Notes under the pieces: model-generated
Seen by the model: only the letters and a program-made list of their open reading frames with translations
The model's database searches: none
What the model was told of the DNA's origin: nothing
Made by a program: the position numbers and the translations under genes
From: Pyrobaculum neutrophilum V24Sta
GTDB taxonomy: Archaea; Thermoproteota; Thermoprotei; Thermoproteales; Thermoproteaceae
DNA length: 64,000 nt
Assembly: GCF_000019805.1 (NCBI RefSeq)
Contig: NC_010525.1
Span: 1-64,000, forward strand
Direction of reading: 5' to 3'
Shown: one piece after another, positions 47,523 to 61,142 of the stretch
Position numbering within the stretch: the first letter of the stretch is position 1
Layout of the letters: each line of letters starts with the position of its first letter

Positions 47523-50500
47523 CTACGCAAAACGCCTAGCCACAAGTATCGAGAGGCCCAGGAGACCGTATATGGCTGGCTCTATGTGCCGGAGAGTCTC
47601 AACTACAGCGAGATTCGGCGTCCGGCCCGCCGACAGATCGCCCTCCACCAACGCCCGCGCCAGGAGAGTCATTGGAGTCGGCGGCGCCGTATAGAGCTGG
47701 GAGATGCCGTCGACAAGAGCCCAATCCCCAGTCGCCACCGCCTTCTCCACAAGGAAGCGGAAGTACTCCGCGGCGCGTTGCGACATGTTGCCGGCCGCTT
47801 CGGAGGCCCGGATGTAGCTCTGGGGAGGCACGGCGAAGCCCACAAAGGCCGTCTTGTTCCTAACTCCCATATACTCGCCGTAGATGGTGAAGTTCACTAG
47901 GCCAAGCGCGTCGTAGCGGCCCACCACCACTACGCTACCGTTGACTCTAGAGCCGTTTAGGTACAGCGCGGCGGATAGAGAGCCGGCGGCGAACACGGGA
48001 AGCCCCCCGGCTGTGCCGAGGATCAGAGCCTCGGGTCTCACCTCCAGAGGCCCCCAGTAGAGTCGTCTGGAGACAAGACTGGAGTTGGTCCGGAAGACCA
48101 GATGGAGGACGCAGGTTCTGTTGTAGACGAGATCCAGGGTGTAGTTCAGCGGCACCGTCCTCCTGAACTGCTCGCAGCCCCAAGCCTCGACCACCGCGGA
48201 GACCGCCACGCGGGGCTCCACAAACCCCCCAAGCACCACCCGCGCCCCGGCGCCCAGAGGTAGCGCGGCCGGCCCCGAGATGGATAGGTTGTAGACCCTG
48301 TACCACAGCACCGGCACAGACACAGTGTACGGCCCCGCCTTAAGCACCACGAGGTATCTGCCGGGCCTCTCCGGGGAGGTCACGTTGACGGCGTATTGGG
48401 CATGTGCCCCCGGCCCCACGTCGACAAAAACGCTCTGCGTCCCGTTGACGTAGAGGGGAACTCTCAAGGTTAGATTCGGCGGCGTGGAAACGGCAACGAA
48501 AACCCTAGCCGGCGTGCCCAACTCGGCCGCCTCGGCGCCGGCGCTCAACCTGAGGGGTGGGCGGAGGATGCGCACCTCCCCAAATCCGTAGCTAAAGACG
48601 GCCGCCCCGTCCGAGGCGGCGACCTCTACAACCTTGGAGAGGCGCCCACGCACCTGATCCCCCCCGACCACGTAGGTGTAGTTGGGCGGGGCGTAGATAG
48701 TTAGGTTGAGAAGGGCGGACTCCCCACCGCGGTCCACACGCCAGTTGAGCAAGCGGACAGCCACAGTGGGCCTGGGGATGTGGATGACCTTTTCCACATC
48801 GCCGAAGTTCGTAGAAAGCGTCAACCTGAGATCCTCCCTGTAGGGAAGCGACGCGCCGGCCGTAGCCCTCCCCGTCGCGCAGAGACCGGCGCCGGCTGGA
48901 ATATGTAAGACCGTCCCGTTTATATAGACAAAGTAGTCCGCGTCGACGGAGGGGTTGCAGATAGACGCCTCTATAGACAGGGACACGTCTACGCTTGAGG
49001 GCGTTACCACCACCCTGGAGACGTCTATGCGGAAGCTGGGGCGCGGGAGCCTAACCGATATGGAGCCCCGCTCGACGGCCGTGTAGCTGATGTTTATCAC
49101 CTCGTCGTATCTAGCCTTGAGGATGCAGACGGAGGCGCAGCCAACGCCGCCATCTACCCTCACGGTGATGTTCAAGCCGGGGAAGTTGGTCACAGGCTTG
49201 AGGAGTAGCTCCACGACGGAGCCGTTGACTCTCGCCTTGACCACCTCAAGCCTAACCTGCGGCTTTGGAAGCGCAAGGGTGTACTTCGCCTGGCCTACCC
49301 TAACGTCGACGGCGTTTTTACCGATCGGGGCGTCGTAAGCCACGGAGAGGGCGGACTGACCCACGCCGGCTGGGCCTGTATCTATACGGATTTTGCCGGC
49401 GTCGCGGCCGTCCACGGCGACTGTGGCGAGATATGTGGCGTTCGGCGTCCCGGAGACGGATCCAACGACGGTTATGGAATACTGTAGCAGTCCCCCGCCG
49501 GCTCCCACGGGCTTTACGTCGATCTTGAAGTCTGGCACGGCCAGGCGTATAGATAACGTGGCCGCCGTGTAGCCGGCCCCCGGCACCCTAAGCGTTGTCG
49601 AGAGCCCGGTGAAGTTGGCAGACGCCGCGTATCCCCCCAAAGTCGCGTATACAGCGCCGGCTCCCCTGTCGAGGTCGTAGTAGATCCTGTACGTGGGCCG
49701 CGCCGCCTTTACGGAGAGCGTTGCCGTCGAGCCGGCGTAGGAGATAGAGAGGAGGCAGTCGCCCGGCGTGGAGACGTTGAAAGGTAGCTTAGCCAAGGCG
49801 CTACCGCCCGGCGGAATCTGCAAAACGGCGCCGCCCCCGAAGCCGGGGCACCCAGCCGCCTTCAGCGTCCCCACAACGACGAGGGGGTTGGGGTTGTAGA
49901 CCGTGACGTTGACGGCGCCCCAGGCCCCAGGCCCCACCAGCAACACGCCCGGCGCCGCCGCCAGCTGGAGGCCCGTCAGATTTACCCTAACGACGGTGGT
50001 GTAGCTACCGTTAGACACAACCAGGGCGTAAGGCCTTAGGGCCCCCCTTGTGACATAGGTGGCAAACCCGCCCCTGGCCGTCACGCCGGTCCCGTTTATG
50101 TAAACCACCCCGTTTGCGGGACTCCCGTCCACAGCAACGTAGAGATCCAGCGCGAGGGTCCCGTTGTCGTAGTAGGCGCCCCCCGTGAACTTAGCGTACA
50201 GCCCTCCGAAGTACATCTTCACGGTGGTGTATACGGGAGACGTCGTGGGGTTGACGAAGGCCACCCTCAACGTGCCGTTGACCCAGATGGGCTGGCCCAG
50301 AGGCACGTTGGAGACAACGCCGGCGGCCTCTATTGTGAGATATCCGGGGTAGGGTGGCGAGATCTCGTAGTAGGCCGCGGTGAGGCCGTCTAGGCTGAGC
50401 GGCTGGGGGTTGTAGCCGGGGGCCAGCTGGTACTTCTGAAAATCGGGAGCCAGTTGCACGCCGCCTATGGAGACGCCTTGTGCCAGAGCTAGGAGGAATT

Positions 50501-51113
50501 TCACATACATGGAGACGAGGGCAGGGTCGGCGTTGCCCCTCGTTGCGTTTACCACCACGGGAGTCCAGTTCCCAAGGCTCTGGAGGTACCAGGCAAAGAC
50601 GGCGCTGTATTTATACCAGTCGTCGTGGGAGGCGGAGTAGGGATTTACCTGGTAGAGCTTGCCCGAGAAGTATCTGTAGGGGAAGTAGAAGTACTGGGCT
50701 CCCACGGCCGCCATGCCCTCGGGGAGGGCCTCCACAGGCCACCTCTGGTCGTAGAGCATGTCTGGGTTGATGTACCTAACCTGGAATACGTGCGCCACCT
50801 CGTGGTAGGCAAGATGTCTAAGCTCCACGTCGCTAAGGCTTTGGCTGAAGTCAAGCCTCTGGACGCACACAGTTGATCCCGAAAGGCCCACCCGGGTGTC
50901 GCCGGACGCCACCGATGTGATGTTGACGAAGTACTTTCCGCCAGAACACGGCGGAGCAGGAGAGAGGCCTTTCCCGACGTAGAACCCGTAGGCCTCCTCA
51001 AGGTAATTGGCGAGCTTCTGGGAGTATGTGTCGTTGCCCACCACATAGAAATGGGGGGTCTCCACGGCGAGAACAAGCGCCGCGGCGACCAACAAGGCTA
51101 ATACAAGCCTCAC
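47523..51113 (-). CDS. Secreted, membrane-anchored metalloprotease (gluzincin) with beta-sandwich domains
   Basis: 1196 residues from GTG 51113, with a signal peptide (RLVLALLVAAALVLAVETP). The catalytic helix HEVAH is at residues 104-108 and the third zinc ligand is likely Glu132 in ALPEGMAAV, 24 residues after the second His: a gluzincin layout. Residues about 240-1120 are a string of beta-rich Ig/CARDB-like domains with many N-x-S/T sites. A C-terminal helix (AIYGLLGLSILVARRFA) anchors it. Targets are unknown, but the neighbouring surface proteins are natural candidates. Confidence 0.82.
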   Translation of the reverse strand: MRLVLALLVAAALVLAVETPHFYVVGNDTYSQKLANYLEEAYGFYVGKGLSPAPPCSGGKYFVNITSVASGDTRVGLSGSTVCVQRLDFSQSLSDVELRHLAYHEVAHVFQVRYINPDMLYDQRWPVEALPEGMAAVGAQYFYFPYRYFSGKLYQVNPYSASHDDWYKYSAVFAWYLQSLGNWTPVVVNATRGNADPALVSMYVKFLLALAQGVSIGGVQLAPDFQKYQLAPGYNPQPLSLDGLTAAYYEISPPYPGYLTIEAAGVVSNVPLGQPIWVNGTLRVAFVNPTTSPVYTTVKMYFGGLYAKFTGGAYYDNGTLALDLYVAVDGSPANGVVYINGTGVTARGGFATYVTRGALRPYALVVSNGSYTTVVRVNLTGLQLAAAPGVLLVGPGAWGAVNVTVYNPNPLVVVGTLKAAGCPGFGGGAVLQIPPGGSALAKLPFNVSTPGDCLLSISYAGSTATLSVKAARPTYRIYYDLDRGAGAVYATLGGYAASANFTGLSTTLRVPGAGYTAATLSIRLAVPDFKIDVKPVGAGGGLLQYSITVVGSVSGTPNATYLATVAVDGRDAGKIRIDTGPAGVGQSALSVAYDAPIGKNAVDVRVGQAKYTLALPKPQVRLEVVKARVNGSVVELLLKPVTNFPGLNITVRVDGGVGCASVCILKARYDEVINISYTAVERGSISVRLPRPSFRIDVSRVVVTPSSVDVSLSIEASICNPSVDADYFVYINGTVLHIPAGAGLCATGRATAGASLPYREDLRLTLSTNFGDVEKVIHIPRPTVAVRLLNWRVDRGGESALLNLTIYAPPNYTYVVGGDQVRGRLSKVVEVAASDGAAVFSYGFGEVRILRPPLRLSAGAEAAELGTPARVFVAVSTPPNLTLRVPLYVNGTQSVFVDVGPGAHAQYAVNVTSPERPGRYLVVLKAGPYTVSVPVLWYRVYNLSISGPAALPLGAGARVVLGGFVEPRVAVSAVVEAWGCEQFRRTVPLNYTLDLVYNRTCVLHLVFRTNSSLVSRRLYWGPLEVRPEALILGTAGGLPVFAAGSLSAALYLNGSRVNGSVVVVGRYDALGLVNFTIYGEYMGVRNKTAFVGFAVPPQSYIRASEAAGNMSQRAAEYFRFLVEKAVATGDWALVDGISQLYTAPPTPMTLLARALVEGDLSAGRTPNLAVVETLRHIEPAIYGLLGLSILVARRFA

Positions 51114-51170
51114 GGAGGTTTGGGCGGGGGGTAATTAAAAACCTTTATTTAGCTACCGCACCACGGCCCC
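51114..51170. promoter_or_regulatory. Divergent promoter of the surface-protein locus
   Basis: The 57-base gap holds AT-rich blocks TAATTAAAAA and CTTTATTTAG. The first lies about 20-25 bases before the GTG at 51113 (minus), the second about 25 before the ATG at 51171 (plus). The protease and the 633-residue protein are therefore transcribed apart from a shared control region. Confidence 0.5.
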
Positions 51171-53072
51171 ATGAGATGGCTCATTCCCCTGGCGGTGGCG
51201 GCGGCGTTGATCGCCGTGTACCTCATGTTGCAACCACCTCCGCCGCCTCAGGCGGGGATAACTACGACGGCCACGCCGCAACAGCCCACAACCGCCCCAA
51301 CCCAAACGACGGCAACCGCCCAGACGCCAACCGCGACGGCGCAGCCCACAGCTACGACGACAACGGCGCCGCGCCCCCCCGCGCCTCAGCCCGTCTACCT
51401 GCCCAAGATAACCTGGAGGCTCTCCGCGCCGCCTGTAGTAAACACGACCAAGTTGCCTCTCGCGGTTAACTACACCATAACCCTGGCCAACGAGGGCAAC
51501 GGCACGGGGGCGGTGGAGGTAGACGGCGTGGTGTACACGCTTAAGCCCGGCGAGAGGATAAACGTTACGAAGAGCGTAGTGGCGAAGACCGCTGGTAGGC
51601 AGAAAATAGCCGTGGTGATCAACGGCACAGAGTACGCCTACGCCACGGCCGTTTACTACTACGCCCCCAAGCTCGTGGCGGAGCCCATCGCGGTAAACGT
51701 AACAAAGATGCCCGCCAACGCCACAGTAGAAATAGTGATCAAAAACGTGGGCAACTACAGCGCGGTGGTCGACGGCGTTGTTATACAGCCTGGGCAGACT
51801 GCCAGGATAAAAACCACGTTAAACATCACGGCGGCCGGCACCTACTACGTCAACTACAGCGGCGTACCCATAGCGGTGACCGTCAACTACCTAACCCCCA
51901 ACGTAGAATACAAGCTGGGCGGCCCCACGTACCTAGAGGTGCTCCCCGGCGAAAACGCCACGGCGTGGCTCTGGCTCTACAACAGAGGCAACGCCACGGC
52001 GGAGGTCAAAATCGACGGCAGAGCCTACGCGATAGCGCCCCGGAGCTACATCAACATCACCAAGAGCGTCAGGATAAACAGCGGCGGGCTCTACGCCGTG
52101 GTCTTCCACGCCGAGGGGGCCCTCAACGGCACGTTAGAATGGCGCGTAAAGGCGGCCCTCGTGGCCGTGAGAGTAGAGATAGTCGTGTGGAAGCCGGACC
52201 TAATGAGGAGCTGGCCGGCGCCCACCGACACCCTAGCCCTCTCGGTGACCAGCAAATCGGTAGACATAGCCTGGGGGTACATCATATCGACAAACGCCAC
52301 CTACAGACCCATCACCTTGAACATACAGGGACCTGGAGGCGGGACGTACGTCCTTAAGCCGGGGGCTTACATATCGGCGAACTCCACAGCCACGCTACAA
52401 GCGCCGGGGACGGGAGAGCTCGCCGTATACATAAACGGCACCAAATACGCCACCACTATACGGCTAGACCTAAAGCCGCCCACGGTTTCCGTGTCAGACG
52501 TAAGCCAGATATGGTTCGAAGACGCTAGACCCATATACTCCGTCCAGATAAACTGCAGAGTGGCAACCATCCAGTTCGACCTCATGAGGGTAAGCGGCAC
52601 TGTGACATACAGCCCCACGGCTACAAACCTACAGGGGACAATAACGGTGAAAACAGCAAGCGGCGTCTACACAGGAGACTACAGCGGATACGTCTCCGGA
52701 AACTCGGGACACGTCAGCATAAGCATAGCAGGGCGCAGAGTAGACATAGACTTCACGGTATCCCCACTAGCCCCAACTAGGATACTGGTAGACGGAAGCC
52801 AAGTCACATGCACAGCGCCCACATACCTAATACCACCTGTGCTATACCGACAGAAGCCGACCACCCCGCCGACGTCTGCCACAGCCTACGCCTCCGCGCT
52901 AGTTTCGCTCTTCGCTAAACAAGACGGCGACAGAGCTCAATCTGCTGTGTGGAACGGAGACTACGTGGAGGTCACAGACGGGTGGGGCAACAAGATGGCT
53001 GTGTACATTAGACAGGGCCAGATCGAGATAAGCGGAGCCCTATCGGCAAGAATTACCGCAGTAATATCATAA
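51171..53072 (+). CDS. Exported surface protein with Thr/Pro-rich linker
   Basis: 633 residues. An N-terminal membrane anchor or signal (RWLIPLAVAAALIAVYLML) is followed by a Pro run and a Thr/Ala/Pro linker, residues about 24-78, likely O-glycosylated. The rest is beta-rich with repeated N-x-S/T sites and repeated 'KPGE/APRS-x-INxTKS' turns (e.g. LKPGERINVTKS, IAPRSYINITKS), suggesting tandem Ig-like domains. It has no enzymatic motif. It reads toward the giant gene, 39 bases away. Confidence 0.8.
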   Translation: MRWLIPLAVAAALIAVYLMLQPPPPPQAGITTTATPQQPTTAPTQTTATAQTPTATAQPTATTTTAPRPPAPQPVYLPKITWRLSAPPVVNTTKLPLAVNYTITLANEGNGTGAVEVDGVVYTLKPGERINVTKSVVAKTAGRQKIAVVINGTEYAYATAVYYYAPKLVAEPIAVNVTKMPANATVEIVIKNVGNYSAVVDGVVIQPGQTARIKTTLNITAAGTYYVNYSGVPIAVTVNYLTPNVEYKLGGPTYLEVLPGENATAWLWLYNRGNATAEVKIDGRAYAIAPRSYINITKSVRINSGGLYAVVFHAEGALNGTLEWRVKAALVAVRVEIVVWKPDLMRSWPAPTDTLALSVTSKSVDIAWGYIISTNATYRPITLNIQGPGGGTYVLKPGAYISANSTATLQAPGTGELAVYINGTKYATTIRLDLKPPTVSVSDVSQIWFEDARPIYSVQINCRVATIQFDLMRVSGTVTYSPTATNLQGTITVKTASGVYTGDYSGYVSGNSGHVSISIAGRRVDIDFTVSPLAPTRILVDGSQVTCTAPTYLIPPVLYRQKPTTPPTSATAYASALVSLFAKQDGDRAQSAVWNGDYVEVTDGWGNKMAVYIRQGQIEISGALSARITAVIS

Positions 53073-53111
53073 GGAGAAAAAAACTTTTAAACTCCACCTT
53101 TTTGAAAAGTC

Positions 53112-56100
53112 ATGCATAACAAAACAAGGTTACTCCTGTTAGGGCTACTGCTCGCTGTCGCGCTCCCCGCAATGATATACGCACAAACTCAGAGGGGAGG
53201 GGGATACGTCCTACCCTCCACCTTCAATGTGGTAATGCAGATAAACGACGCCAGAGCCGCATACCAACTAGACCCCAACTACGTCCTCTGTAACCCCTGG
53301 TCAAAATCGCTCTCGAACTACCCGACCTATAGATTCGCGGCAGGCAAAAACTTCACCCTAATAATTAGAGAAATAAGACAAAACCCCGTATATCCGCCCC
53401 AGTTCAAGGACCTAAGGACTAGCGCCACTGCAAATGCCACAGGCTTCGTAAACTTCCAGATAAGCTTCCCAAGCGGTCTCAATGTAACAAAACCTTCGGA
53501 CTGGTATGTCGCTATCGTCGTAGAGTGGCCCCGGCCAGGCTACTACTTCCTCATATACAACAAGACATTTACAAACACGCCGCTTATAGACGTTCTGGGC
53601 AATCTGACGGGCAGACCGGATCTCACTGGCCAGGAGGTATACAACGGACCGTGGGGCGTCATAAAGGTTTATAATGGGCAGGGACACTACGGCAACTTCT
53701 CCGCCTCGACGATACACACGTTCTACATAGGCGTAAACACCCTGGGCAAGCAGTTCCCGCTTACGCTTACTAGGACTGTCACAATTGGGGGCGCCACCAT
53801 AACGCTGGATAACAACGTCGGCCCGGCGGTAGGGCCGACCAACTACGTTAGGAGCATAGATCCCAACGTGCAGGCGGTATTTGGCCCGTTCACATACCTA
53901 GGGTCCTACGTCTATAACCTCGGTGGCGCGGGTACAACGCCGGATCAATACAGCGTTAAGGTTGACCAGAAACAAGTGTCGTATGGCTACTACATCTACC
54001 TCACCATTGAGGGCAACACGGGCGTTGTGATACAGAGCAAGAACTCCATCCAGTATGCCTACAACCTCCTGAGGTACGTATCTATGACGCTTAACAAGAC
54101 CGCAGGCCCCGGCACCGGCACGCCGGTGCCCATGTCCTGCGGCCTGGTGATCTGGAACATGACGACGTACACCGTCAAGATCACAGGCTTGCTAGACCTC
54201 AAGGGCAACCCGGTATTCAACCCAGAGAGCTTCAGGTTCAAGATACAGACGAAGATAGGCGACAACTGGGTCACCTTCGACCGCGCCCAGGGCTCATGGC
54301 GTTTGGACATAGGCGATGTCAAAGCCGCCCTCAACCAGGTCTGTGGTACTATAACCAGCTTCAACGACCTAAAGCAGTGCTACTACAACCTAGGGCCTGA
54401 TGGGTTCAGAGCAGCAGTGCTGAGCTTGTACCAGCCGATAATTCTGACAAGACTCGGCGGGATGCTGAAGTTGACGGATACCACCGCTGACCTATCTACA
54501 CAAGATTTCGTGACAAAGCTGGTGGCCGAGTACGTATACAACAGCGGCAACGACGTGGTCAACGCCCTCGTGTTCGAAGCTCCGCTTATGGCGCCGGTGA
54601 ACTGGCAGGGCGTCCTCAACGTGTCGATTCTGCCCGTCCAGATTAGGCTGTGGAGGTGGAGCAACCTGTCGCTACCTCCTGCGTTGCCTAATCCAAGGGA
54701 GTACTACTACAGCGATCCGCTCGACCTAGCCTCGCTGAGGTTTGTGGTAAGCGGAGACACCGTGTACATTGACAGATATGCCTACGACGGAGCTATTACG
54801 TACGATCCATGGCTCGGCCAAGTGATATGGTCCCTGCCGCCCTATGTGCCTGCTCCCGGGTTTGTCGGCAACGTCAGAGTTAGCCTACTTGCGTGGTTCA
54901 ACGCAAGCGGCTACCTACCAGCCCCGACCTTGATCGCCAACTTGACAACCAGCGGCTTTAGGTACTTCAACTACAGCGATGCCATGGCGTACAGCGGCTA
55001 CTTCTCCAAGTTCAACATTGGGATCGTCGGAAGCTACTCCTACAAGTTCAGGATCTACTACAACGACGCCCTGGTAGGTACCGCTAACATCATCGTGAGG
55101 TATCCAAACGTCACGTCCACGGGCTTGATGAAGCAAGACGCCGCCTCTGTCAGAGGAGTGCTCCAGCCGGTATATGACTCCAACAACAGGGTTGACATGT
55201 ACAATGTTGAGTACGCCACCCCCGCCAGATTCTACGACAGGGAGCACGTGATACACATAGCGATTATTAGGATATTCCAGAACATACTTCTGAGGGACGC
55301 ATGTGGCAACCCGATATCCGGCGTATCTGCCGGCCTGGCCGGCGCCTACCTAACGCTGAACGTGACGGTTGGAGACCGTAGCGTAACAATCAGCAGGCTA
55401 CCGCTTGGAAGCGAGGTGCCTGTCGACGTGTACATACCGATTGACCAGTGGGGCAACCCGCAGCTCGACCTAACAAGAGGCTCTATTGTAGCGTATCCAG
55501 TCCTCTACTACTTCGGCTACAAGCTCTACCCAGTGGCCAACGTTTCCCAGATCCCGGCGAGTCAGCCCATGCCTCTGACGATTCCGATTAAGTTCGGCGT
55601 TGTGAGGAAGCCGGTGCTCTACCTGCCCATCGCGCCGTTGCTCTTCAGAGTCTGGAGCCAGGCGATATCAGCCGACTACGACCCGCTCAAGGAGCCGCTT
55701 GTGGGCTTTGTAGTTAGAGTCTTCAGCACTGCGACCGGCGACGAGATGGCGAGAAGCATATCCAACGTGACGGGCTACGCATACGTGCCCAATGTGCCTA
55801 TTGGCGTGCCGCTGAAGGTATCCGTGAGGACCATCGTGCCGTCTTCTGACAAATACTGGAGCTATACGTACGAGCAGATCAAGAGGTCTAACGACTATGC
55901 CTCCTACGCGACGTTCATGGGCCGCAACCCCTCGGATAACGTCTACACGCTGGGCACAAGGGGCGCGATTGACGCTGGGCTAGAGGTGAACAAGACGACC
56001 ATAGTCCTCACGGCGGGCAACGCGTCGAAATACATATGCGCCAAGGAGCCCATTAACCTAGCTACGCAGGTGTTTGACCTAGTCGTGAGGCTGTGGGATA

Positions 56101-59100
56101 AGACAGGTAAGTACCTCCTGAGGAGCCAGTACGTCTACTTCGGGCCGTATCCGCAGGCAACTAGGCCGTATTTGATGAACGTAACGCTAGTCGTCGACGG
56201 CGGCGTGTATCCCGACGCCTCTAGATGGATGAACTACGCCACGAACGACTACAAGATTTTGACGGACTTCCGCGTAATAGGTATAACCGGCATGAGGTCG
56301 ATATACCAGAAGCTAGCCTCGTACTACTTGAAGCAGGCGCAGACCTATCTCTACTGTCCGACGTATGCGGCTGCCAACTACTCGGCTGCTATCAACGCGT
56401 TTGCCCTAGCTGCGATGGCTGGGTACATCGCCAACGCCTCGACGGACAGGTACGCCGCTGTGTTCCTGCTGACGTCGCAGCAGCCGAAGGACTTGATAGA
56501 TGTGTGTGCGATGACGCCTTCGCAGGTGGGTGCCTCCGAGCTGGCGAGGCTATTTATGCCGGGCCAGAGGCTGAGGTTCGTCGTGTGGTACCTAGGCCAG
56601 AAGGTGTTTGACGACTACGTGACTATCACAGGGCCGGTTGTGGACATAAGGACCGACGTATACCCAGTCAACACCACGACCTACACAAAGAGCATGAGGT
56701 TGCCCGTCGACGCGTTCGTAGGCTTCACGCTGTCTGACGTCTACGTAGGCGTCGCTGCCAACAAGACGCCCGTCGACACGTTGTTTGCAAACGCGTCGGT
56801 GGCCTCGAGGTTGCTTGCTCCGTTTGACTCGATGTACAAGGTATACAACCTCGGCTGGCTTGTTGACAACGAGCTGGCGAAGTCTAGCCAGACGATGTAC
56901 AACGATATGGTATACGCGGTCAGCGGTGACCAATCCCAGACGTGGTACTACGGAACCTACAAGCCGACCACCTCTGGCGTCGAGTTCGTGTATCTGCCTA
57001 ACCTCGCAGTGATAAGAAACGGCACAACTGCGAAGTACCTCACCACGTTGCTCAACAGCGTCCAGCAGAGGACGGTCACACAGAGAACCGCCAACTCCAT
57101 ACCGCTACAGAACTTCACGGTACAGGTCCCCGCCTCTTCCAGCGGCACGGTAACGCTACGCGGCGCCTATATCAAGTACGACCCGGCGTCCAACTCCACC
57201 TACCTCCACCTCACCGCCTATAACGGCACTGAAAACGGCGTCTTGGTTCAGCCGTATGCCGTGTTGAACCTACAGCTTGCCGTGTTGCCAAACGGCACCG
57301 TTAAGAAGGACTTCGTCCGCGAGTATCCAGCCAACTACACAATAGACCTCTACGTCTACGCCAAATGCGGTAGCGTGACGCTTCAAGGCGCCCCCGGCGA
57401 CATAACTGTTAACGTAAACGTGCAGGCAGGTAGCTGTCCCGCAACTATCGTGCTGAAGGGCGTCAACATGAGCTATCCTGTTAAGACGATCGTGTTGCCT
57501 GCAACACCCAGCGCAGAGTACGTCGTAAGCTTCGACAGATGGTTCAGTACGATGTACGACACAGCCTTCATGTCCTACAGTGTGCTCTACCACTCGAGCG
57601 ATGTTGTCGAGAGGAACCACATCCTGTCTGTGTTGACCTATCCGGGCGCCAACAGAATATGTGCTGTTCAGACTGCAGTTGCGCAAGTGGGTGAAGACGA
57701 TGAGTACACCTACAGATTGTGGTTGAGAGGCGCCAACGTGACTAACTACAGGACCTTGTTGGTGACTCTGCCGTGGAAGATCGCCGGCGGCGGAAAGGCT
57801 CTGGTCAACATCACCGCCTACTTTGACAACAACAACACTCTGATCGACTACAAGGTCTACAACTTGACCTCAATGCTCAACGGCACGAAGGGTGAGCAAG
57901 CGACGGTAGCTCTGCCGCTGAACTTCGGCAGAGTTGGCCAGCTGGCCTATGCCATAGCAACCACGGGCGCGAGGGTACGCTACGAGATAAAGTTCTACAT
58001 GTATGACCCGAGGACTGCTCCATACAGCGTCTGTGCGGTTAAGTTGGTGCCGCTGTATGCCAACTACAAGACGGTGTCTATGTACGACTGCGCGGTACCG
58101 TCTCTGGCTGGCCCAACTAACATCGACCCCACCACTGTGGTTTACAGCATCGACCCAGCCGGCTCTGCCAACAACGGATTCACTGTGACGTTTGACCAGT
58201 ATGGCGGGTTCGGAGCTCCGATTACCTACGTGGTGAGAGCCGGAGACGTCGCTCTACTGCCGTCTTGGTACCACAAGACCTCGGTGGCTGGCTCGCGCAT
58301 CTCCAGGATATGGCTGATCGCCGCCAGCGACGACCCGTCCAAGGGCCCGGCGCTTGGTACAAAGTATGTCGAGCTAACGGCTAAGGACGACAAGGTCGCT
58401 GTGGAGGGCTACAAGCTGTTTAAGTACCTCGTGATCAACTACATACCGCCCGTCTGCCGCGGCTACGTCACCACCACCTACCTGGACGAGTTCGACGGCT
58501 CGGGCAGAATTAGCGGCCTGGGCTTCGGCGTGGGCGGCACGAGCTCGCTGTTGCTGAGCAACTACACGCACGTGGCTATGTGGAACTCCACCGCCATGTG
58601 GATGGCCGGAGGAGTGTTCAAGTTGCCCACCGTGGCTCTCGACTACTTGAGCGTGCAGAACGACGCCCAGTTCCCGATATATGTCGGATCGCTGACTGTG
58701 AAGTACCGCGACTGGAGGTACGAGGTGCCGATGAATTTGACGAGGGTTGACGCGAAGTCTACCGTGAGCATGATTCCGCTGAACGGCTACGGCTTCGGCA
58801 GGACGTACATGATCAACGCGACCGACGTCTGGGGCTTCAGGCTGGTGCAGCCCAACTACGCCTACGGTCTGAAGGTCTACCACGGCGGTTTGGTTGACGC
58901 GATTAAGTACTTCGGCATACCGACCATGCCGAAGACGCTTGATAAGTACATACAGCCGCTGACGAGCCAGTACTACCTGCAGAACGTCTTGTACGCGAGC
59001 CATGCCGAGACGACACAGTGGACGTTTGGCATACTGAACAACAAGATCTCCGAGGTGACCCGCGGCGTTTGGGGCAACTTCGACGTGAACACCACCAACT

Positions 59101-61142
59101 GGGACTACAAGTACGTGTTCAACTTCCCGACTCTGCCGCTGAAGGAGATACGCGACTGGAACGACAGACCGCTGGCTAACCAGACCGTGGCGCTGTTTGA
59201 CAGATCCGGCAGGCTCTACGCTGTGGTGTACAGCAACAGCTTGGGTAGGCTGGCATATCCGTTGCCCGATCTGTCTTCGGTAGGCCTATCTAACGTGGTG
59301 AGGGTGGCGTGGTACGACGGCTACATCGTCGAGCTGTTGATGGGCAAGCCCGAGTTCACGATATGGGTCTACGACCAACTGATCCAGAGAGATGTCACTG
59401 AGCTGGGCGACGCATCGGTTAACGACAAGATAAGGACCTATGTCTACCCGCTGACTGTCACCGTGAAGGACGACGCCGGGAGGCCGCTGACGAATATGAT
59501 AGTGAAGGTGGTGGACACCTCGACCGTAGGGCAGTTGGTGAACGCGGCTAATAAGACCGGCGCCGACGGCGGCGCCCAAGTCGTTGACTTGAGGATTTCG
59601 AAGTACTCCACCGGAGTGCTCTCGCAGATTCCGCCTACCAGCTACTACTACTACGTCTATGATCCGTCCGGCGCCTTGGTTGCCGCCGGCAGATTTGAGA
59701 TACAGCGCGGTGCCTCTGTGCCGTCGACCGGCTGGAACGTTGTGGCCACCGTGAGGTATGCCACCGAGATACCCGTGAAGAACAGCGCCACTAGGGGCTA
59801 TCTGCTGATCAAGGGCGTGGAGTTCCTCAACGGCACTAGGAAGGATATCAAGATTCCGTTCACTATATCGGGCGGCGTGATGATCCTGGGCGGCAAGGTG
59901 CCTGTGTCTGTCGAGTACCCAGTTGAGATCTACGTGACCCACGTGACGTTAGGCGGCCAGGAGGTGCCTGTCAAGGGCGGTCAGTTCCTTGTGTACAGCG
60001 GAAAGACCACCGATCTGCTGTCTGGGCTTGACTTCGCCGAGCTTGGGCTGACGGGCGTAGTGACGATACAAGCTGTTGACGCCAGCGGCGCACCGAGGAG
60101 CGACTGGACTGTTCAGGTGCTGTACGGCAACCTCACCGCTGCACAGGGCGCTGGCCAGGTGCAGGCCGTGTTGCCGAGGAGCGACGTCCTTGGCCAACCC
60201 TACACTGTGAAGGTGATTACGAACGCCATGACGCCCGAGGGCCGCGCCTTAGTCAAGACGCAGGTGCTCAACCTAACGCAGAAGGCGCTGTCTCTCCAGA
60301 TACCCGTCTCGACGGTGAAGGTGGTTGTGCAGGTGGTTGACGGCTTTGGTGCTGTGAGGAGCGACTGGCCTGTGGCTGTGGAGAACGTGGGGTCTGGGAT
60401 GGGTCAGCTGTCTGTTGAGCTTGTGGATGGTCAGCAGTACGTGGCTAGGGCCACCGGCCTAGGCTTCACCAACACCACCGCCTTCACAGCCAAAGGTCCG
60501 CAGATGGTGATAAGGATCAAGATACCCACCGGCAAGATAGTGGCCCAGGCCGTAGACGGCTTCGGCAACGTCAGAAGCGACTGGACTGTGCAGATCGTCG
60601 GCGTCACCACAGGCCAGGGTAGTGTAGGGCCCGTGGAGGTGCTGGCCGGCACATACACCGTTAAGACTTCGGTGTTTGGCAAGGAGTTCAGCCAGACTGT
60701 CAACGTGCAGCCGGGCCAGACCGTGACTGCGGCTGTCCAGGTTCCCACCGCGAAGCTGAGCGTCACCGCCGTAGACGACGACAAGAAGCCCATCGACCAG
60801 TACGTCTCGTCTGTGGAGGTAACCGGCCCGCAGACGTTGATGTACTCCAGCTCGCCGAAGAACGTGGAGGTGCTGGCGGGCACCTACACGGTTAAGGTGC
60901 AGGCTCTTGGGAAGGAGGCCACTGCGCAGATCGCGCTGAATCCGGGCGACGTGAAGAACATACAGGTAGTGGTGCCGGGCACCGCCGGGCTTGACTTCTT
61001 CGGCACCAGGATACCGTTGCCGACGCTGGTGCTGTACGGCCTGCTGTTGTTGGTAGTGATAGTGATACTGGCGATACTGATCATCGAGTACAACAACTGG
61101 AGGAGGAGGCGCTTGATGCAGATACTGGCGCCGCCTAAGTAA
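53112..61142 (+). CDS. Giant exported, membrane-anchored surface protein (S-layer-like)
   Basis: 2676 residues. The signal peptide TRLLLLGLLLAVALPAMIYA is followed by long beta-rich sequence with N-x-S/T sites. At the C-terminal end, tandem carboxypeptidase-regulatory-like repeats (VDGFGAVRSDWPV, VDGFGNVRSDWTV) lead to one membrane helix (YGLLLLVVIVILAILIIEY) and a basic tail. TATA CTTTTAAAC is about 20 bases before the ATG. It is the longest gene in the window and may be the main surface protein or a stalk, but the S-layer role is inference. Confidence 0.85.
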   Translation: MHNKTRLLLLGLLLAVALPAMIYAQTQRGGGYVLPSTFNVVMQINDARAAYQLDPNYVLCNPWSKSLSNYPTYRFAAGKNFTLIIREIRQNPVYPPQFKDLRTSATANATGFVNFQISFPSGLNVTKPSDWYVAIVVEWPRPGYYFLIYNKTFTNTPLIDVLGNLTGRPDLTGQEVYNGPWGVIKVYNGQGHYGNFSASTIHTFYIGVNTLGKQFPLTLTRTVTIGGATITLDNNVGPAVGPTNYVRSIDPNVQAVFGPFTYLGSYVYNLGGAGTTPDQYSVKVDQKQVSYGYYIYLTIEGNTGVVIQSKNSIQYAYNLLRYVSMTLNKTAGPGTGTPVPMSCGLVIWNMTTYTVKITGLLDLKGNPVFNPESFRFKIQTKIGDNWVTFDRAQGSWRLDIGDVKAALNQVCGTITSFNDLKQCYYNLGPDGFRAAVLSLYQPIILTRLGGMLKLTDTTADLSTQDFVTKLVAEYVYNSGNDVVNALVFEAPLMAPVNWQGVLNVSILPVQIRLWRWSNLSLPPALPNPREYYYSDPLDLASLRFVVSGDTVYIDRYAYDGAITYDPWLGQVIWSLPPYVPAPGFVGNVRVSLLAWFNASGYLPAPTLIANLTTSGFRYFNYSDAMAYSGYFSKFNIGIVGSYSYKFRIYYNDALVGTANIIVRYPNVTSTGLMKQDAASVRGVLQPVYDSNNRVDMYNVEYATPARFYDREHVIHIAIIRIFQNILLRDACGNPISGVSAGLAGAYLTLNVTVGDRSVTISRLPLGSEVPVDVYIPIDQWGNPQLDLTRGSIVAYPVLYYFGYKLYPVANVSQIPASQPMPLTIPIKFGVVRKPVLYLPIAPLLFRVWSQAISADYDPLKEPLVGFVVRVFSTATGDEMARSISNVTGYAYVPNVPIGVPLKVSVRTIVPSSDKYWSYTYEQIKRSNDYASYATFMGRNPSDNVYTLGTRGAIDAGLEVNKTTIVLTAGNASKYICAKEPINLATQVFDLVVRLWDKTGKYLLRSQYVYFGPYPQATRPYLMNVTLVVDGGVYPDASRWMNYATNDYKILTDFRVIGITGMRSIYQKLASYYLKQAQTYLYCPTYAAANYSAAINAFALAAMAGYIANASTDRYAAVFLLTSQQPKDLIDVCAMTPSQVGASELARLFMPGQRLRFVVWYLGQKVFDDYVTITGPVVDIRTDVYPVNTTTYTKSMRLPVDAFVGFTLSDVYVGVAANKTPVDTLFANASVASRLLAPFDSMYKVYNLGWLVDNELAKSSQTMYNDMVYAVSGDQSQTWYYGTYKPTTSGVEFVYLPNLAVIRNGTTAKYLTTLLNSVQQRTVTQRTANSIPLQNFTVQVPASSSGTVTLRGAYIKYDPASNSTYLHLTAYNGTENGVLVQPYAVLNLQLAVLPNGTVKKDFVREYPANYTIDLYVYAKCGSVTLQGAPGDITVNVNVQAGSCPATIVLKGVNMSYPVKTIVLPATPSAEYVVSFDRWFSTMYDTAFMSYSVLYHSSDVVERNHILSVLTYPGANRICAVQTAVAQVGEDDEYTYRLWLRGANVTNYRTLLVTLPWKIAGGGKALVNITAYFDNNNTLIDYKVYNLTSMLNGTKGEQATVALPLNFGRVGQLAYAIATTGARVRYEIKFYMYDPRTAPYSVCAVKLVPLYANYKTVSMYDCAVPSLAGPTNIDPTTVVYSIDPAGSANNGFTVTFDQYGGFGAPITYVVRAGDVALLPSWYHKTSVAGSRISRIWLIAASDDPSKGPALGTKYVELTAKDDKVAVEGYKLFKYLVINYIPPVCRGYVTTTYLDEFDGSGRISGLGFGVGGTSSLLLSNYTHVAMWNSTAMWMAGGVFKLPTVALDYLSVQNDAQFPIYVGSLTVKYRDWRYEVPMNLTRVDAKSTVSMIPLNGYGFGRTYMINATDVWGFRLVQPNYAYGLKVYHGGLVDAIKYFGIPTMPKTLDKYIQPLTSQYYLQNVLYASHAETTQWTFGILNNKISEVTRGVWGNFDVNTTNWDYKYVFNFPTLPLKEIRDWNDRPLANQTVALFDRSGRLYAVVYSNSLGRLAYPLPDLSSVGLSNVVRVAWYDGYIVELLMGKPEFTIWVYDQLIQRDVTELGDASVNDKIRTYVYPLTVTVKDDAGRPLTNMIVKVVDTSTVGQLVNAANKTGADGGAQVVDLRISKYSTGVLSQIPPTSYYYYVYDPSGALVAAGRFEIQRGASVPSTGWNVVATVRYATEIPVKNSATRGYLLIKGVEFLNGTRKDIKIPFTISGGVMILGGKVPVSVEYPVEIYVTHVTLGGQEVPVKGGQFLVYSGKTTDLLSGLDFAELGLTGVVTIQAVDASGAPRSDWTVQVLYGNLTAAQGAGQVQAVLPRSDVLGQPYTVKVITNAMTPEGRALVKTQVLNLTQKALSLQIPVSTVKVVVQVVDGFGAVRSDWPVAVENVGSGMGQLSVELVDGQQYVARATGLGFTNTTAFTAKGPQMVIRIKIPTGKIVAQAVDGFGNVRSDWTVQIVGVTTGQGSVGPVEVLAGTYTVKTSVFGKEFSQTVNVQPGQTVTAAVQVPTAKLSVTAVDDDKKPIDQYVSSVEVTGPQTLMYSSSPKNVEVLAGTYTVKVQALGKEATAQIALNPGDVKNIQVVVPGTAGLDFFGTRIPLPTLVLYGLLLLVVIVILAILIIEYNNWRRRRLMQILAPPK
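60057..60960 (+). repeat. Internal tandem repeats in the giant surface protein gene
   Basis: At least three units (near 60057, 60320 and 60535) encode V-x-A-V-D-x-x-G-x-x-R-S-D-W-x-V. The phrase GTGGAGGTGCTGGC recurs at 60635 and 60867, encoding VEVLAGTYTVK twice. The units are about 80-90 residues each, as expected for stacked beta-sandwich domains close to the membrane. Confidence 0.65.

Follow-up and report, generated by a model that had tools for sequence, protein, structure and literature searches.

Electron microscopy of Thermoproteus tenax and 'Thermoproteus neutrophilus' has revealed an S-layer whose p6 lattice repeats at about 30 nm, with pillars that bridge about 25 nm (PMC5744192). 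The S-layer of the Thermoproteales was imaged in the 1980s, and no experimental assignment of a gene to it was found in the literature searched. TTX_1887 has been proposed as the S-layer protein of T. tenax, with its signal peptide, C-terminal transmembrane (TM) helix and glycosylation potential (PMC3189178). In Staphylothermus marinus the S-layer protein tetrabrachion carries the protease STABLE, the sole archaeal example of an S-layer-associated protease cited in a 2017 review (PMC5744192). The first-pass annotation of the locus analysed here knew of no described system of this make-up, which is too strong a statement, an S-layer-bound protease being already known in STABLE on tetrabrachion. 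On balance, and with modest confidence, we favour reading it as an S-layer locus in which a two-protein unit is accompanied by a divergent, membrane-anchored gluzincin acting in the quasi-periplasm.

The window, that is the whole 64,000-nucleotide stretch of Pyrobaculum neutrophilum DNA under study, carries three ORFs (P0001, P0002 and P0003, Table 1) at 47523-61142, which had been predicted to encode exported, glycosylation-rich beta proteins; both the coordinates and this description were borne out. Each of the three proteins starts with a hydrophobic segment, either a signal or an anchor, and P0001 and P0003 end in a C-terminal TM helix. N-x-S/T sequons are in excess over shuffled sequences, P0001 having 31 where 5.5 are expected (at most 12 in any of 1000 shuffles), P0002 17 where 4.7 are expected (at most 11) and P0003 49 where 19.5 are expected (at most 31), corresponding to densities of 1.8-2.7 per 100 aa compared with 0-0.4 in the cytosolic genes of the window. 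AlphaFold2 (AF2) modelling covered P0001 (pLDDT 83) and P0002 (pLDDT 84), both predicted to consist mostly of tandem beta domains. Domain searches, proposed at the outset, found no confident family for any of the three proteins in Pfam, NCBIfam or PDB sequences, and P0001 gave only weak matches to gluzincin families. Codon bias was considered as a sign of high expression and was dropped, the reference genes not being separable from the background.

Table 1. Features of the P0001-P0003 locus, in coordinates of the window.
Feature	Position	Strand	Basis
P0001, 1196 aa: gluzincin-like peptidase domain behind a signal peptide, then about ten beta domains in tandem, a short helical domain and a C-terminal TM with RR tail	47523..51113	-	sequence, homologs, AF2 model
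P0001 C-terminal TM helix, residues 1168-1195	47529..47612	-	AF2 model
Ig-like beta domains of P0001 in tandem, residues about 214-1095	47829..50474	-	AF2; generic Ig matches
P0001 peptidase domain, residues about 19-220	50454..51059	-	homolog alignment; AF2 helices and strands
Glu132, ligand first proposed	50718..50720	-	invariant only in close family
Glu128 (W-x-x-E), likeliest third zinc ligand, predicted helix 125-139	50730..50732	-	invariant 13/13; kept in distant HExxH homologs
HEVAH motif, residues 104-108, predicted helix 95-112	50790..50804	-	H104, E105, H108 invariant 13/13; AF2
Divergent intergenic region, 57 bp, AT-rich TATA-like core, P0001/P0002 starts	51114..51170	.	sequence; nine Pyrobaculum genomes with a similarly short gap between the head-to-head genes
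P0002, 633 aa: anchor helix at the N-terminus, then a disordered Thr/Pro linker, CARDB/Ig domains in tandem and a C-terminal beta domain containing two Cys	51171..53072	+	sequence, AF2 model
Thr/Pro/Ala/Gln linker of P0002 (residues 20-78), its 58 residues including 18 T and 16 P	51228..51404	+	composition, AF2 model
BRE/TATA promoter of the giant AAAAAACTTTTAAA, about -34 to -21 from ATG	53078..53091	+	motif kept at same distance, 12/12 genomes
P0003, probable giant S-layer protein, 2676 aa: signal peptide, beta-rich ectodomain, C-terminal TM, tail	53112..61142	+	ortholog of TTX_1887
P0003 C-terminal TM helix, about residues 2637-2658	61020..61085	+	sequence comparison
P0003 predicted cytoplasmic tail EYNNWRRRRLMQILAPPK	61086..61139	+	near-invariant in Thermoproteaceae; EYxxWRxRR module on other Thermoproteota giant C-termini

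Homologs of P0003, the giant of the locus, occur in each of the 11 Pyrobaculum genomes and in 6 of 6 from genus g3 (Thermoproteus). The T. tenax ortholog, at 2663 aa, matches the published length of TTX_1887 and displays 39% identity to P0003 over 1422 aa (29-54% across the ectodomain in 200-residue blocks), and it shares both the P0002 partner and the promoter. Like TTX_1887, P0003 combines a signal peptide, a sequon-rich ectodomain and a C-terminal TM helix. In a phmmer search against the PDB it gave a chance match only, with no similarity to solved SlaA. A GAAAA-x-TTTAAA-type BRE/TATA motif was present at about -34 from the ATG of the giant in every one of the 12 genomes checked, from Pyrobaculum and Thermoproteus, in Pyrobaculum immediately after the P0002 stop codon, and is rare in the window (chance expectation of 0.22 at up to one mismatch). 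Since this motif is conserved at a fixed distance and rare by chance, the giant probably has a strong, leaderless promoter of its own. We consider it probable that P0003 is a lattice-forming S-layer protein, the giant being already suspected as the coat gene in the relative T. tenax.

Conservation varies along the giant, residues 1201-1600 forming a hypervariable block (46-58% identity within most of Pyrobaculum and 28-29% in G003) flanked on both sides by better conserved sequence, and residues 2001-2676 reaching 72-93% in most species. Smaller proteins encoded in the same genome (G000:C1:816739-817302 and 595086-596003) match parts of the C-terminal beta domains of the giant (residues 2013-2225 and 2206-2542). 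One Pyrobaculum genome, G006 (contigs C22, C48 and C101), apparently contains two divergent P0002-giant pairs without P0001; two S-layers are known in P. organotrophum, another species of the genus (PMC5744192).

The predicted cytoplasmic tail of P0003 is near-invariant in Thermoproteaceae. The last 18 residues, E-Y-[NS]-N-W-R-R-R-R-L-M-Q-I-L-A-P-P-K, have one variable position in nine genomes (Pyrobaculum and T. tenax), and the last 15 are identical between P0003 and TTX_1887. Using a profile of the final 70 residues, the TM helix with an EYxxWRxRR tail was recovered from 119 of the 398 Thermoproteota genomes sampled, which belong to 51 of 163 genera, a breadth that is somewhat circular because the profile rows came from searching with the P0003 tail. 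Not circular is its position, as it often terminates ORFs of 1484-2941 aa. Within the 26 rows of the profile E, Y, R and P are invariant. The same module was also observed on small ORFs of 50-80, 175-190 and 230-260 aa. Such conservation across distant genera suggests that the coat may talk to the cytoplasm, and a near-unchanging inner tail on a coat protein appears to have no earlier description.

P0002 immediately precedes the giant, in the same orientation, in both Pyrobaculum and Thermoproteus, with 44-46% identity across most of Pyrobaculum and about 31% to Thermoproteus. The AF2 model displays a disordered Thr/Pro linker of 54 residues (pLDDT under 50), and matches the CARDB structure PDB 2kl6 with Z 8.0 and an rmsd of 2.8 across 90 residues, which is a generic match at the level of fold. 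P0002 and P0003 had been put forward as two structural layers; of these, the giant is itself the likely S-layer protein (TTX_1887 ortholog), and P0002 resembles a companion tethered beside it more than a layer of its own.

In the arrangement that we favour, P0003, transcribed from its own strong and probably leaderless promoter, would be the S-layer glycoprotein that forms the lattice, and its C-terminal TM helix with the conserved cytoplasmic tail would hold it in the membrane. P0002, membrane-tethered and with its Ig/CARDB rod on a flexible linker, would probably support or space this lattice, in a two-component S-layer analogous to SlaA/SlaB, for which we make no claim of homology. P0001, diverging from the shared 57-bp intergenic region, would be a membrane-anchored gluzincin on a long Ig stalk. 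It would cleave proteins of the quasi-periplasm beneath the S-layer, its likeliest role being the maturation, turnover or quality control of S-layer or surface proteins. That the envelope is its substrate is a plausible reading, evenly poised.

The catalytic residues of P0001 were examined by comparison with its homologs. All 13 close homologs, drawn from Pyrobaculum, Vulcanisaeta and family f5, share H104, E105, H108, W125, E128 and E132, so that HEVAH and Glu132, on whose conservation the original proposal depended, are both retained in the close family. In the wider family, the E128 of W-x-x-E is kept by all aligned HExxH-bearing members, whereas position 132 is D, V or T in four of the alignments of distant HExxH homologs. 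Because position 132 varies and 128 is kept, Glu128, not Glu132, is the likely third zinc ligand; of the three elements first recognised, HEVAH and the C-terminal anchor stand, and the downstream Glu was probably mis-assigned. AF2 places HExxH and Glu128 on two consecutive helices, as in gluzincins. The best Pfam and NCBIfam matches were BSP (E 0.21) for P0001 itself and MXAN_6640_HExxH (E 0.0044) for one homolog, none above the curated cut-off, and the same searches gave no S8 (subtilisin) match. Whole-model fold searches returned nothing beyond generic Ig or CARDB/macroglobulin matches, the Ig domains of P0001 swamping its catalytic domain, and there was no match to P0001 in phage records.

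With the conserved HExxH and a downstream Glu on the following helix, the signature of P0001 is that of a gluzincin, from which we infer zinc binding and proteolysis; P0001 is probably an active metalloprotease. The earlier picture of a membrane-held metalloprotease at the cell surface is upheld by a membrane-anchored, gluzincin-like protein encoded beside surface-layer genes. ORFs of 351 aa in three genus-g4 genomes (L159, L160, L161 and L168) encode short anchored proteins with a P0001-type domain that has lost HExxH. Such relatives illustrate that the fold can persist without catalysis, and P0001 might likewise be an inactive binding module on an Ig stalk, acting as an adhesin or structural spoke; the invariance of H104, E105, H108 and E128 in all 13 homologs argues against this, and we regard it as very improbable.

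P0001 is present in 10 of the 11 Pyrobaculum genomes, the exception being G006, and always adjoins P0002, head-to-head in nine and tail-to-tail in G001. Homolog searches found it absent from the Thermoproteus genomes, and in the Vulcanisaeta and f5 genomes examined its homologs are found apart from the giant, with unrelated genes around them. Co-occurrence of the three genes, as the first-pass annotation would have it, therefore applies to Pyrobaculum but does not extend to Thermoproteus, which has P0002 and the giant without P0001. Being absent from Thermoproteus and unlinked elsewhere, P0001 is, as judged from these comparisons, an accessory rather than an obligate part of the S-layer, which does not need it, since it is missing from both Thermoproteus and G006. 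It also evidently evolves quickly, much faster than the giant, with 36-40% identity within Pyrobaculum against mostly 63-71% for the giant in the same genomes, and it does not track the divergence of the giant in G003. The flanking aCPSF1 and cysS genes are syntenic too, and gene content between cysS and P0001 varies among the genomes.

Ordinary synteny would account for several of these features if P0001 were an independent envelope protease that had settled by chance beside the S-layer operon in Pyrobaculum: the aCPSF1 and cysS flanks are syntenic as well, the homologs in other lineages are unlinked and P0001 shows no co-divergence with the giant. However, the short head-to-head arrangement has been kept in 9 of 11 genomes at 36-40% identity despite changing neighbours, and in genus g4 the S-layer locus harbours a protease of unrelated type, which makes a chance neighbour unlikely. 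P. neutrophilum is an autotroph, and its retention of the gene with all catalytic residues speaks against the view that P0001 is a surface protease for nutrition, supplying the cell with peptides, and that its location simply reflects expression at the cell surface; so does the P0001-P0002 adjacency, which survives the gene-order swap in G001. Anchored extracellular proteases do feed peptide-fermenting archaea, and feeding is one suggested role of STABLE (PMC5744192). For P0001 we nevertheless disfavour this use, which was among those first suggested, as distinctly improbable.

An S-layer locus with its own protease, the reading that we prefer for P0001-P0003, has counterparts elsewhere. In G019, of the Caldivirga-like genus g4, the gene directly upstream of the giant (L231:559-2901) codes for an exported sedolisin of 781 aa, with SGDSG and GTSLASP motifs and a match to kumamolisin at E 5e-14, and in G028, of the same genus, a 33% identical sedolisin occupies the same position before the giant (L233:603-2534). 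An anchored trypsin/PDZ (HtrA-like) protein is encoded about 2 kb upstream of the giant in G146. Most other giants examined had no recognisable adjoining protease among the flanking ORFs scanned, a part of the total, and a universal rule of a protease beside every S-layer giant was thus discarded. In genera g4 and g6, profile comparisons of the neighbours of the giant revealed no partner resembling P0001 or P0002. The association of proteases with S-layers is recurrent, not universal, on account of the g4 sedolisins, the HtrA-type protein of G146 and STABLE on tetrabrachion. Sedolisins are acid-active and Caldivirga is acidophilic; a pH rationale, with sedolisin in g4 (if Caldivirga) and gluzincin in neutrophiles, may be attractive. 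More speculatively, Thermoproteota S-layers might share an EYxxWRxRR...P anchor-tail docking to a conserved intracellular partner, and their loci might recruit a class-swapped protease (gluzincin in Pyrobaculum, sedolisin in the Caldivirga-like genus, subtilisin in Staphylothermus) that matures or remodels the coat, a generalisation that we hold to be doubtful.

The protease adjoining the S-layer genes here appears not to have been described previously. The locus provides a concrete gene set, comprising a putative lattice protein, a tethered companion and a protease, with genus-wide orthologs, and P0001 is a candidate enzyme for S-layer maturation or turnover.

Among known systems, the closest to P0003 is its ortholog TTX_1887, with which it has length class, signal peptide, C-terminal TM helix and promoter motif in common, although the P0002-giant pair of T. 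tenax is without P0001, and the lattice role is putative in both T. tenax and Pyrobaculum. SlaA/SlaB of the Sulfolobales likewise pairs a large lattice protein with a membrane-tethered Ig companion (SlaB) encoded side by side, but in the present locus the giant itself carries a C-terminal TM helix, the companion is anchored N-terminally and no PDB chain is matched. P0001 shares HExxH and W-x-x-E with BSP (PF04450), Peptidase_MA_2 (PF13485) and MXAN_6640_HExxH (NF045524), to which its profile matches are weak, and differs from the Peptidase MA and gluzincin families in the roughly ten Ig domains and TM anchor that follow. The sedolisins (kumamolisin) of genus g4 are analogous in their placement directly before the giant, but belong to the serine-carboxyl class and are unrelated to P0001. 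Tetrabrachion with STABLE offers the same combination of an S-layer system and an associated extracellular protease in the quasi-periplasm; STABLE, however, is a subtilisin bound to the stalk, whereas P0001 is of the HExxH type and carries its own TM helix.
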